Origin: Myxococcota bacterium
Lineage (GTDB): Bacteria > Myxococcota_A > Polyangia > Polyangiales > Polyangiaceae
NCBI GenBank assembly: GCA_963169915.1
Contig: CAUJEM010000125.1
Coordinates: 1-64,000 of the forward strand
Direction: 5' to 3'
DNA: 64,000 nt
The notes beneath the pieces were generated by a model. That model searched no databases. It was not told where the DNA came from and saw only the letters and a list, made by a program, of their open reading frames with translations. A program made the position numbers and the translations under genes. Positions 2,701 to 44,361 of this stretch are shown here, one piece after another. Positions within the stretch are counted from its first letter, which is position 1, and each line of letters opens with the position of its first letter.

Positions 2701-3294
2701 CTAGCGGTGCGCCATCCCCACGACGAACACCTCGCTGCTGTTGGGTCGGGTCGCCTCGGCGCGGATCGTCTTCACTTGCGCGTAGACCTCGCCGACGGCG
2801 CGCCGCAGCGCAGGGAAATCTCCGCTCATGAACAGCTTGGCGACGAAGGCGGAGCCAGGGGCGCCGTGCTCCCGCCCGACCTCCAGCGCCCTCGAGAACA
2901 GCTCCGCCGAGAGCGCCTGATCTCGCAGCTTGTTGCCGCTGGTGCTGGGCGCCATGTCGCTGAGCACCACGTCGAAGGGGCCGTGGCGCACCAGCAGCTC
3001 GGAGCCGAGCTCGAGGGCGTCGCCTCGAACGGCGGTGACGTGCGGCGCCAACGCGAGGCTCAGCTCCTTCAGATCGATGGCGAGGACGCTGCCCTGCGGT
3101 CCGACCCGCTCCGCGGCCCAGAGCGTCCAGGAGCCCGGCGCGGCCCCCAGGTCCACCACCCGCTGCCCCACCCTCAAGAGGCGCACCCGCTCGTCGATCT
3201 CGCGGAGCTTGAACACGCTCCGCGCGGGGTACCCTTGGGCCTTGGCGCGCTGGGTGTGCTGATCAGCGCCCAAGTAAGGGTTCTTGCGCTTCAT
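2701..3294 (-). CDS. rlmE: 23S rRNA (uridine-2'-O-)-methyltransferase RlmE (FtsJ/RrmJ)
   Basis: A 197-residue RlmE family enzyme, which uses SAM to methylate the 2'-OH of the A-loop uridine of 23S rRNA (U2552 in E. coli). The full K-D-K-E catalytic set is visible: Lys29 (SVFKL), Asp113 (LSDMAPSTSG), Lys153 (FVAKLF) and Glu188 (NSSEVFVVG). SAM motif I is VVDLGAAPGSWT at residues 46-57. Length matches the family. Its ATG lies five bases after the stop of the pseudouridine synthase/methyltransferase fusion, so it is the last gene of a three-gene ribosome operon starting with rplC. No strong Shine-Dalgarno is present, which suggests translational coupling to the gene upstream. Confidence 0.93.
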   Translation of the reverse strand: MKRKNPYLGADQHTQRAKAQGYPARSVFKLREIDERVRLLRVGQRVVDLGAAPGSWTLWAAERVGPQGSVLAIDLKELSLALAPHVTAVRGDALELGSELLVRHGPFDVVLSDMAPSTSGNKLRDQALSAELFSRALEVGREHGAPGSAFVAKLFMSGDFPALRRAVGEVYAQVKTIRAEATRPNSSEVFVVGMAHR

Positions 3295-3299
3295 GGCGT

Positions 3300-4952
3300 C
3301 TAGGCTCGTACCACGCGCGGCGCGGCGGGAGAAACCACCGCCACGGCGCTCTTGCTCGGACTCGGCCCCTCCTCGGGGCTCGGGCAGTCCGCGCCCGGCG
3401 CCAGGCTCTTGACGCTCTCCACCGCCACGCCGGCCTGCGCCGCCGCGCGTCGCAGCAGCGCCCTCAAGGCCCCCTCGGAGGTGCCGCGGTGGTTGGTGAC
3501 CGCCAAGATCCGCCCCCCGGGGCGCGTCACCTGGAACGCGCTCTCGAGGAGCGCCGCGTAGTCCTTCGTGACGCTGAAGCTGCGCTGGCCGACGGTCGCG
3601 AAGCTGGGTGGATCGATCACCACGAGCCCCCAGCGCTCACCGCGGCGCGCGGCGCCACGGAGCCACTCCACCGCGTCCCTCCGCACGAAGCGGTGCCGCT
3701 GCTCATCGAGCGCGTTCGCTCGAAAGTTCTCACGCCCCCGCTCGAGCGCTCGCCCGGCAAGGTCCACGCTGGTCACCTCCGTGGCGCCTCCGAGCGCCGC
3801 CGCCACGCTGAACGAGCAGGTGTAAGAGAACAGGTTGAGCACCCGCTCGCCTCGAGCCCACTCACGCACCCTCGCGCGGTTGTCCCGCTGATCGACGAAC
3901 AGCCCGGTGGAGAGCCCGTCTCCCAGCGACACGAGCGCCCACTGCTCACCCTCGCGCACACGCAGCGGCTCCGGGGCTGGCGCTCCCACGAGCGGGGTGG
4001 GCGACGCCAGCTCACGCACCTCGAGCCGTCTCAGATCGGCTCGCGCGCGCTGCTTGAGATAGACGCCACGGGCGCCCAGCTCCACGAGGGCCTGCGCCAG
4101 CTCGGGAGCGCGAGCGGCGGCGTCGGGCGTCGACACGCAGAGCACCGCGAAGTCGCCATAGCGGTCGACCACCACGCCCGGCAGCCCATCGCCGAGCTCG
4201 TTGACCCAGCGGTGCGCGTCGCCCAGCCGCTCGAGCCCCCAGCGCCGCCAGAGCGCGACCTGGAGCGGCTGGGCGAGCTGCTCGGGGAGGCTGGGGGCGC
4301 GCCCCTCGAAGCACTCGCGCAGCGTCGCGGGCAACGGCGCCGTGAAGCGCTGGCCCTCGAGCGTCAGCGCTTCGGCATGCAGGCACAAGCGCCACCACGG
4401 CGCGCCGCCGTACAGGCGGTCTCCAGCGATGGGCGCACCCCGCGCGGCGAGCTGGACCCGGAGCTGGTGCGTGCGGCCCGTCTCTGGGAGCAGCTCGACG
4501 AGCGCGCGCCCGGCGTGGCGCGCCAGCACCCGGTACCTCGAGCGCGCCAGCAGCCCACCGCGCGGCACCACCCGAGTGACGCCACGCTCGTGCAGCAGGT
4601 GGTCTTCGAAGGCGCCCGCGGTGGGCAGCCCGGGATCGGTCACCACCGCGAGGTAGCGGCGCTCCGTGCGGTGCTGCTCGAACAGCGGCGCCAGGCGGCG
4701 CGCCACCGCTGGCGTCCGGCTCAGCGCCAACACCCCGCTCGTCGCCAGGTCGAGGCGCTGGTGCACCCCGAGATAGCTCGGCTGGCCCCGACGCTCGAGC
4801 CACCGCGCCACGCGACCCACCACGTCCGACACGTCGCCGTCTCGGCCGCCATGGACCGGCACGCCATGTGGTTTGTCCAGCACGAGCAGCGACGAGCTCT
4901 CGAAAAGCACGAGGCCCTCGAGCCAGTCGGTGAGACACGACTCGAAGGCCAC
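3300..4952 (-). CDS. Fusion of RluA-type pseudouridine synthase and RlmI-like SAM methyltransferase
   Basis: A 550-residue two-domain RNA modification protein. Residues about 12-215 are an RluA-family pseudouridine synthase: LDKPHGVPVH, catalytic Asp68 in HQRLDLATSG, RTHQLRVQ at 160-167 and LHAEALTL. Residues about 240-520 are a class I methyltransferase of the RlmI/RlmK type: NELGDGLPGVVVDRYGD, GLFVDQRDNRARVRE, SAM motif VLNLFSYTCSFSV, and DPPSF at 447-451. RlmI makes m5C1962 in 23S rRNA and normally has an N-terminal PUA domain; here a synthase domain takes that place. The GTG start has GGAGGA seven bases upstream. The gene sits between rplC and rlmE, so rRNA is the likely substrate for both activities; target sites are unknown. 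Confidence 0.85.
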   Translation of the reverse strand: MAFESCLTDWLEGLVLFESSSLLVLDKPHGVPVHGGRDGDVSDVVGRVARWLERRGQPSYLGVHQRLDLATSGVLALSRTPAVARRLAPLFEQHRTERRYLAVVTDPGLPTAGAFEDHLLHERGVTRVVPRGGLLARSRYRVLARHAGRALVELLPETGRTHQLRVQLAARGAPIAGDRLYGGAPWWRLCLHAEALTLEGQRFTAPLPATLRECFEGRAPSLPEQLAQPLQVALWRRWGLERLGDAHRWVNELGDGLPGVVVDRYGDFAVLCVSTPDAAARAPELAQALVELGARGVYLKQRARADLRRLEVRELASPTPLVGAPAPEPLRVREGEQWALVSLGDGLSTGLFVDQRDNRARVREWARGERVLNLFSYTCSFSVAAALGGATEVTSVDLAGRALERGRENFRANALDEQRHRFVRRDAVEWLRGAARRGERWGLVVIDPPSFATVGQRSFSVTKDYAALLESAFQVTRPGGRILAVTNHRGTSEGALRALLRRAAAQAGVAVESVKSLAPGADCPSPEEGPSPSKSAVAVVSPAAPRVVRA

Positions 4953-42450: not shown

Positions 42451-43146
42451 ATGACCGGGACGCTCGCCATCAAGACCCCTCGGCGGGGCACCTGGAGCCA
42501 CGCTCGGCTGCCGCTAGCCCTGCTGGGCGCGTTCTGCCTCCTCAGCGTGGTCACGCTCTGGGCGCCGCCGGCGGGGCGCGTCAGCTGGCTCTTGGAGGTC
42601 GGGCCTGGCGTCGCTGGGGTGGTGGTCCTCCTCGCGGTGTACCGGCGCTTCCCCATGAGCCACCTCGTCTACGGCATGGTGTTCCTCCACCTCTGCGTGC
42701 TCCTCTACGGCGGCTACTACACCTACGCGCTCACCCCGCTCGGTGACTGGGCCAAGGAGACCTTCCAGCTCTCACGCAACCACTACGATCGCGTCGGGCA
42801 CGTCGCGCTCGGCGTCTTCCCTGCCTTCATCGTGCGGGAGGTGTTGCTCCGGCGCACCCCGCTCGAGCGAGGAGGCTGGCTCTATTTTCTCATCGTCAGC
42901 GTGGTGCTCGCCATCGCGGCGTTCTGGGAGCTGCTCGAGTGGTGGGTCACCCTGGTCGTCGCCTCGGACACGGGCACCGCCTTCCTCGGCTCGCAGGGCG
43001 ATGTCTGGGATGCCCAGTGGGACATGCTGTTGGCGCAGCTCGGGGCCATGCTGGCCTTACCGCTGCTCAGCAGCGCCCACGATCGTTCCATCGCGAAGAT
43101 CCCCGTGGACCACGCGGCGCCAGCCCGCTCCGGGGCGCCTCACTGA
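42451..43146 (+). CDS. DUF2238 (YjdF-like) inner-membrane protein
   Basis: A 231-residue protein with six or so helices. The family signature is clear in HLVYGMVFLHLCVLLYGGYYTYA, NHYDRVGHVALGVFPAFIVRE, AAFWELLEWW and the metal-like QGDVWDAQWDM near the end. The function of DUF2238 is unknown. The ATG follows the corA stop by two bases, so it is likely a partner of the metal transporter. Its last codons overlap the 3' end of the convergent PHAX-domain gene by seven bases. Confidence 0.83.
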   Translation: MTGTLAIKTPRRGTWSHARLPLALLGAFCLLSVVTLWAPPAGRVSWLLEVGPGVAGVVVLLAVYRRFPMSHLVYGMVFLHLCVLLYGGYYTYALTPLGDWAKETFQLSRNHYDRVGHVALGVFPAFIVREVLLRRTPLERGGWLYFLIVSVVLAIAAFWELLEWWVTLVVASDTGTAFLGSQGDVWDAQWDMLLAQLGAMLALPLLSSAHDRSIAKIPVDHAAPARSGAPH

Positions 43147-44114
43147 GGCCCGAAGCGGCGCAGGAGCGCCTCCAGCGCTTGCTGGCGGAGCAGCTCCCCG
43201 ATGTCCTCCGCAAAGGCGCGGGCCAGCCGCTCGACCTCGGCCTCGAGATCCACCTCGCCGAGGCTCTCGGTCGCCGCCGGCAACACGAGCGACACCACCT
43301 CCTGCTCCGCCGACCCCCCGGTGCCCTCCCGTTCCACGTCGGGCGGCGCCACGCGCTGCGCCCGCGAGCTCCGAGCGCGCGCGGCGCGCGCCGGCTCCCC
43401 GCGCGACGCCGCTGGGCTCGCCTCTTGCTCCAAGAGCGACGGCGCGACGATGATGCGCCGGCGGCGCACGCCGAGCTCGGCCTCGACGGCGTGCTCCGCA
43501 TCGTCGGGAGCCGGAGCATCGCCCTGGAGCGCAGCCTCCGGAGCCTCCGCAGGGAAGGCGCGCTCCAGCGCCGTCGGTAGGTGCAGTGAGCGGGCCGTCG
43601 GCGGGGGCACCGTCGGCGGGCGCGGCGGCAGGCCGGCGTCGGTGGGACGGGCCGCCGACGGCGCCGGGGCGGCGGCCTCTCCGACCGACGCGCCGCGCGG
43701 ACGCGCCCGGAGGACTTGGACCTCCACCGGTCGTGACGAGCTCGGCGGCGGCGGGATGGGGCGCGTGGAGCTCTCGCGCGAGCGCTGCTCGAGCAGCGCG
43801 GGATCGTCACTCCGGCGCACCTGGCTGTCCACGCCGAAGACGGTCCGACGATCCCGGCGGGAGAGCCGCCGCCGCGCGAGCACGAAGAAGACCCCTCCCA
43901 AGGAGCGGCGCTGGAGCCCGTCAGCCGTGAGCAGGCCCTCGCCGGCGTCGAGCCGCTGAGCCTCCTCCAGCAGCTCCCACGCGACCGCCTCGCCCAAGAG
44001 GGCGACGATCGACGTGAGCTGCTCGAGGGGCTTGCTCTCGCTCTCCCCGAGCGCTCCCGCGAGGCGCGCGGCGACGGCCGCCTGTGGCTCTGGTTGCTGG
44101 TCTTGCTCGCCCAC
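43140..44114 (-). CDS. Protein with PHAX-like RNA-binding domain and long low-complexity tail
   Basis: A 324-residue protein. Residues about 18-85 (LARRLAG-like start, IVALLGEAVAWELLEEAQ, LLTADGLQRRSLGGVFFVLARRRL) resemble the RNA-binding domain of the phosphorylated adaptor for RNA export (PHAX), a helical module described in eukaryotes and found in some bacteria. The middle is Pro/Ala/Arg-rich and probably disordered. The end (VDLEAEVERLARAFAEDIGELLRQQALEALLRRFG) is a helical segment that could oligomerise. The protein has no signal peptide and is likely cytoplasmic, possibly binding structured RNA. A tRNA-Thr gene lies immediately upstream on the same strand. No RNA target can be named. 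Confidence 0.65.
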   Translation of the reverse strand: MGEQDQQPEPQAAVAARLAGALGESESKPLEQLTSIVALLGEAVAWELLEEAQRLDAGEGLLTADGLQRRSLGGVFFVLARRRLSRRDRRTVFGVDSQVRRSDDPALLEQRSRESSTRPIPPPPSSSRPVEVQVLRARPRGASVGEAAAPAPSAARPTDAGLPPRPPTVPPPTARSLHLPTALERAFPAEAPEAALQGDAPAPDDAEHAVEAELGVRRRRIIVAPSLLEQEASPAASRGEPARAARARSSRAQRVAPPDVEREGTGGSAEQEVVSLVLPAATESLGEVDLEAEVERLARAFAEDIGELLRQQALEALLRRFGPQ

Positions 44115-44286: not shown

Positions 44287-44361
44287 TGGAGCCGATTTGG
44301 GGATTTGAACCCCAGACCTGCGGTTTACGAAACCGCTGCTCTACCGCTGAGCTAAATCGGC
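44287..44361 (-). tRNA. tRNA-Thr (anticodon CGU)
   Basis: A complete cloverleaf can be folded: acceptor GCCGATT with AATCGGC, D-loop GCTCAGCGGTAGAGC, anticodon stem GCGGT/ACCGC around loop TTCGTAA (anticodon CGT), and T-arm CTGGGGTTCAAATCCCC. The 3' CCA is encoded, following discriminator T. It reads ACG codons, which are frequent in this GC-rich DNA. It is transcribed towards the PHAX-domain gene. Confidence 0.95.

Follow-up and report, generated by a model that had tools for sequence, protein, structure and literature searches.

Why would a bacterial genome encode a domain best known from eukaryotic snRNA export, and what would such a protein do? The question is raised by a 64,000-nucleotide stretch of a Myxococcota genome (contig CAUJEM010000125.1; the whole stretch is called the window here), in which a sequence-only reading had recognized the pattern of the PHAX RNA-binding module in a protein encoded next to a tRNA gene. 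The features under discussion are as follows.

43140..44114, minus strand: gene for a 324-aa protein with a GTG start, whose N-terminal PHAX RNA-binding domain (PHAX-RBD) is followed by a disordered tail and then a helix at the C terminus
43833..44072, minus strand: PHAX_RNA-bd domain (PF10258), residues 15 to 94, assigned by Pfam, AlphaFold2, and Foldseek, with a predicted five-helix fold
43440..43466, minus strand: linear motif RRRRIIVAP, within the disordered tail; its RRR[VIT][VIF] pattern is common to all myxobacterial tails compared
43152..43247, minus strand: predicted C-terminal helix, residues 290 to 321 (pLDDT block means of 81 to 87)
44287..44361, minus strand: tRNA-Thr (anticodon CGU; Rfam RF00005), 172 bp upstream of the PHAX-RBD gene on the same strand

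A PHAX-type domain in a myxobacterial protein

The open reading frame is present where it had been placed, and it is a real gene, as evidenced by a GC content at the three codon positions (0.843/0.568/0.892) similar to that of argJ (0.731/0.585/0.920) and by a GGAGAG sequence 7 nt ahead of the GTG start. A profile search matches the protein to Pfam PF10258 (PHAX_RNA-bd) with an E value of 1e-10 and 41.9 bits against a cutoff of 25, and a six-frame profile search of the genome to which the window belongs found one copy (45.1 bits). The strings on which the module was first recognized, GEAVAWELL, GLLTADG, and RRSLGGVFF, are found at about residues 41 to 49, 60 to 66, and 69 to 77; the domain thus lies where it was read, although its limits had been given as residues 18 to 85 and are 15 to 94 by Pfam. 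PF10258 stands alone at an E value of ≤1e-3, with RRM, CSD, OB, and ankyrin domains absent; the protein has no match in PHROGs, and an NCBIfam search gave nothing notable. A single-sequence phmmer search against PDB sequences also returned human and Cryptosporidium PHAX-type domains (2w4s, 2xc7, and 8pnt; E values of 2.9e-4 to 1.6e-3), which, besides the Pfam match, indicates that the domain assignment exceeds chance.

The model agrees. AlphaFold2, supplied with an alignment of 62 family proteins (L004, L005, L006, L007, L010, L065, and L068 were left out), gave pLDDT values of 95 to 98 across residues 11 to 93. Foldseek matched this model to 2w4s (TMt, 0.76; E value, 7.5e-4; probability, 1.00) and to 2xc7, titled "PHAX-RBD in complex with ssRNA" (TMt, 0.62; E value, 1.1e-3; probability, 1.00). 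We conclude with high confidence that the 324-aa protein carries a PHAX-type RNA-binding domain. The long disordered tail and helical C terminus described from the sequence are likewise seen in the model: pLDDT is <50 at 122 of the 324 residues, the tail is predicted to be disordered, and the helix at residues 290 to 321 is possibly an oligomerization or partner-binding helix.

Across the 62 aligned family rows, E24, G60, R69, G73, G74, V75, F76, and F77 are invariant, and the window copy retains all of them. Its core motif, LQRRSLGGVFF, departs from the consensus SRRRTPGGVFF by Gln for the first Arg and Leu for Pro, and its net charge is slightly acidic (−3 in the domain part and −5 in the tail). 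The motif departures and the acidic charge, the latter unusual for a nonspecific RNA binder, count against the reading that we favor below. Together with a long branch (1.3) in the domain tree, they might instead signify an acquired gene that is drifting toward loss, its RNA binding already gone. We regard this explanation as very doubtful, because the open reading frame is intact and has coding-type codon usage, the fold is predicted with high confidence, and both the invariant residues and the tail motif have been kept. The RRR[VIT][VIF] pattern is found in 9/9 of the myxobacterial tails compared, against a mean of 0.02 and a maximum of 1 in 2000 composition shuffles; the comparison is descriptive, the motif having been picked once the sequences had been seen and several of the rows being closely related.

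A rare and patchily distributed family

The PHAX-RBD proteins are a rare, patchily spread bacterial family and not a single odd gene. Among 377 genomes of the Myxococcota, the phylum to which the window belongs, 5 exceed the PF10258 cutoff, as do 16 of 301 Chloroflexota genomes, which hold up to 4 copies each. A sixth match in the window's phylum (G314, locus L006) scored 24.2 bits, under the cutoff, and was judged false. Matches in no more than 1.6% of the Myxococcota genomes sampled exclude a role for the protein as a chaperone general to this phylum. A scan of 84,980 species genomes identified 60 loci, which are by label 50 Chloroflexota (Thermomicrobiales included), 9 myxobacterial (one of them labeled Proteobacteria), and 1 Nitrosomonas; a hit had to contain either the core R[RK][TS][PL]GGVFF or a single alternative pattern, and thus further groups are possible. 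The contig labeled Nitrosomonas (L049) has the top profile score seen, 95.3 bits, and may be a misbinned Chloroflexota contig.

Two IMG/VR viral contigs also encode the domain (L008:7956-8480 and L009:7938-8627), and the C terminus of the L008 protein matches phrog_15216. A tblastn search of 50,697 phage and 72,556 plasmid records found no match. The literature search turned up nothing on PF10258 or PHAX_RNA-bd, on a bacterial PHAX domain, or on phosphorylated adapter RNA export in Chloroflexi, and the papers listed by a broader query were unrelated, in keeping with the initial remark that the role of such proteins is largely unexplored.

Relation to eukaryotic PHAX

A profile made from bacterial sequences alone finds human PHAX (E values, 1.6e-23 and 3.3e-23) and, at an E value of 2.6e-17, the Cryptosporidium domain; the PHAX RNA-binding module therefore has bacterial relatives. 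A 2011 comparative study presents PHAX as a lineage-specific innovation with strong matches in animals only (PMC3032688). The existence of bacterial relatives turns the origin of one step of snRNA export into a testable question.

A first loop that is three residues shorter is found in 6 of 75 bacterial rows (L040, L049, L052, L063, L064, and L101) and in both eukaryotic rows. The domain tree comprised 77 rows and 82 columns; L010, L024, L065, L068, L069, L096, L100, L103, L104, L109, L117, L119, and L120 were dropped from it, and L002, L004, L006, and L007 never entered. In this tree, 44 of the 73 inner branches are open, and the placement of the window protein is unsettled. Both eukaryotic rows join the Chloroflexota protein L062 (98/58), which itself does not have the short loop, and given that the tree is unrooted and poorly resolved, we claim no direction of transfer as shown.

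An orthologue of the export adaptor was considered and rejected, as the significant phmmer match to 8pnt covers only residues 244 to 326 of that protein and is accompanied by one nonsignificant stretch. The segment that binds the cap complex and CRM1, which in human PHAX spans residues 112 to 162 (PMC12350170), and its nuclear export signal were not detected in the window protein by the same phmmer comparison.

Domain architectures of relatives

Relatives of the window protein combine the domain with other modules. PF10258 is found in 62/62 family proteins searched against Pfam, RRM_1 in 7/62, CSD in 5/62, and IF2_N in 1/62. Four RRM-like repeats were read in L041, and three cold-shock-like repeats in L118. 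Tandem PHAX-like domains within single proteins were also read, with degenerate second copies (L057:1644-2663 and L066:7965-8534); in genome G386, a second match fell under the cutoff. At the other extreme are L105 and L106, which consist of the domain alone (about 118 aa) and are suited to biochemistry.

Many Chloroflexota members share a conserved C-terminal segment (GRPxxV...LPKGxPxPP...KQW...EG) that has no Pfam match. In a model of one such protein (L028:7914-8687, plus strand; mean pLDDT, 91.2), this segment forms a mostly stranded domain at about residues 140 to 248, with pLDDT values of 89 to 98 in most blocks and matches to PriB (Z, 8.7) and SSB (Z, 7 to 8). The L028-type C-terminal domain is thus predicted to have an OB-like (PriB/SSB) fold. 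Since Z values near 8 may reflect no more than a common arrangement, this is a fold assignment and does not demonstrate binding to DNA or RNA.

The fusions to RRM, cold-shock, and OB-like domains support a function in RNA handling, not the chemistry of nuclear export, and point to a class of bacterial RNA-binding proteins that is apparently undescribed in the literature searched. In the window protein, RRM, CSD, and OB-like partner domains are missing by Pfam, and the tail is predicted to be disordered. Based on homology and on the fusions in its relatives, the window protein is nonetheless likely to bind RNA.

Genomic neighborhoods

In the window, the gene order is corA, a DUF2238 gene, the PHAX-RBD gene, tRNA-Thr, and argJ, with the PHAX-RBD and DUF2238 genes convergent and overlapping by a few bases. 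The adjacency to a tRNA gene had been remarked on and is real, but a conserved tRNA link was rejected: of 73 loci, 5 have a tRNA at most 1 kb away, the isotypes being mixed (Thr, SeC, Gly, Leu, and Leu), and the copy in the congener G056 lies elsewhere. Judged by the outer flanks of these loci, 0.8 such cases would be expected (Poisson P, 0.0013; conditional binomial, 0.013). The count approximated gene edges for up to 12 loci, omitted L002, L024, L065, L068, L069, and any locus whose gene position was not set, and included the window locus, itself picked partly for its tRNA. The excess, the shared strand, and the 172-bp spacing without a called terminator-like site could suggest that the protein processes, modifies, or shields the adjacent tRNA-Thr. 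Such a partnership is hardly credible, however, considering that the isotypes differ (Leu appears twice), that at 68 of the 73 loci no tRNA was called that close to the gene, and that the mild excess is explicable by integration at tRNA genes.

The congener G056 keeps tRNA-Thr and argJ together, and a remnant of a Mu-type portal gene lies about 0.5 kb beyond its tRNA-Thr (G056:C41:8601-8816, with an E value of 6.6e-10; about 8039-8816 of L090). Because of this fragment, the tRNA-Thr site of G056 resembles a hot spot for integration, and the window tRNA-Thr is perhaps one as well. An integration end repeat was sought in the window, and the search yielded just a 12-base match to the tRNA at another position, of a length that chance would give.

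The PHAX-RBD gene of G056 (L070:7801-11157, contig 41) is on the same strand as, and between, FtsJ and PseudoU_synth_2/Methyltrans_SAM genes, a position that would suit a factor for the ribosome or for rRNA maturation acting together with RNA-modification enzymes. This role is quite improbable. The arrangement comes from a single genome, the window counterparts of the flanking enzymes (2704-3294 and 3303-4952) adjoin with no PHAX-RBD gene between them, and an all-against-all comparison of flanks (3857 ORFs from 69 loci, with L002, L004, L006, and L007 dropped as duplicate or spurious) shows no such conserved neighbor. The same comparison led us to reject a conserved operon: widely common neighbors are limited to a ParA-like cluster (9 loci) and an antirepressor-like cluster (7 loci), and the remaining clusters consist of near relatives, overlapping antisense frames, and common families, such as ABC transporter, kinase, and response-regulator types.

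Another alternative is that the gene is cargo of mobile elements or defense islands, its product binding invader or host transcripts for defense, counterdefense, or element regulation. Among 70 neighbors scanned with Pfam, a hand-picked set taken entirely from the plus strand of the loci and in great majority from 204 near neighbors, the top family was P22_AR_N (5 matches), and phage-type integrases had 2; a second set, 131 of 168 further neighbors, gave ParA-type (4), P22_AR_N (2), and prim-pol (2) matches. These tallies name families rather than members, and the matching neighbor was sometimes deduced from position. Moreover, in two Oscillochloris metagenome-assembled genomes, BREX genes come before the PHAX-RBD gene, as BrxHI-PglZ-BrxA directly upstream with a 4-base overlap (L060:2261-8296) and as PglZ and a probable BrxL (L042:3593-8435). 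The mobile-element neighbors in Chloroflexota flanks, the BREX linkage, and the two viral contigs all favor cargo. Nevertheless, the P22_AR_N, ParA, integrase, and BREX figures are raw counts, uncorrected for background; PADLOC matches around the loci are mostly single, and both BREX-linked copies are cut off by contig ends; many loci, including the window with its argJ, corA, and DUF2238 genes, lie among housekeeping genes; and the phage and plasmid records had no match. We therefore consider cargo with such a function unlikely.

Proposed function

We favor, with moderate confidence, the reading that the window protein is a soluble, stand-alone RNA-binding protein, in which a single-stranded-RNA-binding PHAX domain is joined to an accessory tail and helix, and that it is a trans-acting chaperone or regulator whose gene travels between genomes. 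The N-terminal helical domain would bind RNA, most likely single stranded and with little sequence specificity, through the conserved RRR[ST]xGGVFF helix and loop, as the human PHAX domain does. The disordered tail, rich in arginine and proline and carrying the RRR[VIT][VIF] motif, might add low-affinity contacts with RNA or partners, and the C-terminal helix may form oligomers or dock a partner. In this reading, the protein would be a trans-acting accessory factor, either an RNA chaperone or a regulator, and its gene would move singly or as the cargo of small elements.

Is there room for such a protein? Hfq and ProQ were under the cutoff in 24/24 genomes examined, with and without PHAX-RBD; G397 had one weak Hfq match. 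Hfq absence does not, therefore, predict PHAX-RBD presence, and strict replacement of Hfq or ProQ was rejected, as both are also absent from genomes without PHAX-RBD; their absence allows a vacant niche but is not proof that the PHAX-RBD family fills it. A link to Ro60 was rejected too, with TROVE found in 3/24 genomes, one with PHAX-RBD (G383) and two without (G032 and G089).

A broader scenario is more speculative, and we think it rather unlikely as a whole. In it, an old, horizontally moving bacterial family would have diversified mainly in Chloroflexota by mixing with RRM, cold-shock, and new OB-like domains and would perform trans-acting RNA-chaperone or regulator work in genomes without Hfq or ProQ; the eukaryotic PHAX module, in print an animal or opisthokont innovation, would descend from its short-loop branch.

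Comparison with known systems

The RNA-binding domain of human and metazoan PHAX (2xc7 and 8pnt) is the same domain with the same fold, and its RRRTPGGVF core is common with the bacterial consensus. The solved human complex holds single-stranded RNA, according to the title of 2xc7, whereas small structured RNAs had been proposed as ligands for the bacterial protein. Mourao et al. (2010) reportedly found the affinity of the PHAX domain for single-stranded RNA to be modest and its specificity low. Human PHAX and the window protein are also alike in being mostly disordered beyond the domain; in the structure of the human export complex, the domain is not visible (PMC12350170).

The nearest solved fold to the window model is the "novel RNA-binding domain" of Cryptosporidium parvum (2w4s). 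That chain is named an ankyrin-repeat protein in the PDB, whereas the window protein has no ankyrin match.

Among bacterial RNA chaperones, Hfq and ProQ have folds unrelated to the PHAX-type domain; the likeness, which is hypothetical, is that of small trans-acting RNA binders.

Finally, the PHAX-RBD proteins of Chloroflexota, for instance that of Thermosporothrix hazakensis (L017), resemble the window protein in the domain, the stand-alone gene, and the patchy distribution. Many of these Chloroflexota members carry a C-terminal domain predicted to be OB-like, and some carry RRM or CSD domains, whereas in the window protein a disordered tail and a single helix take their place.
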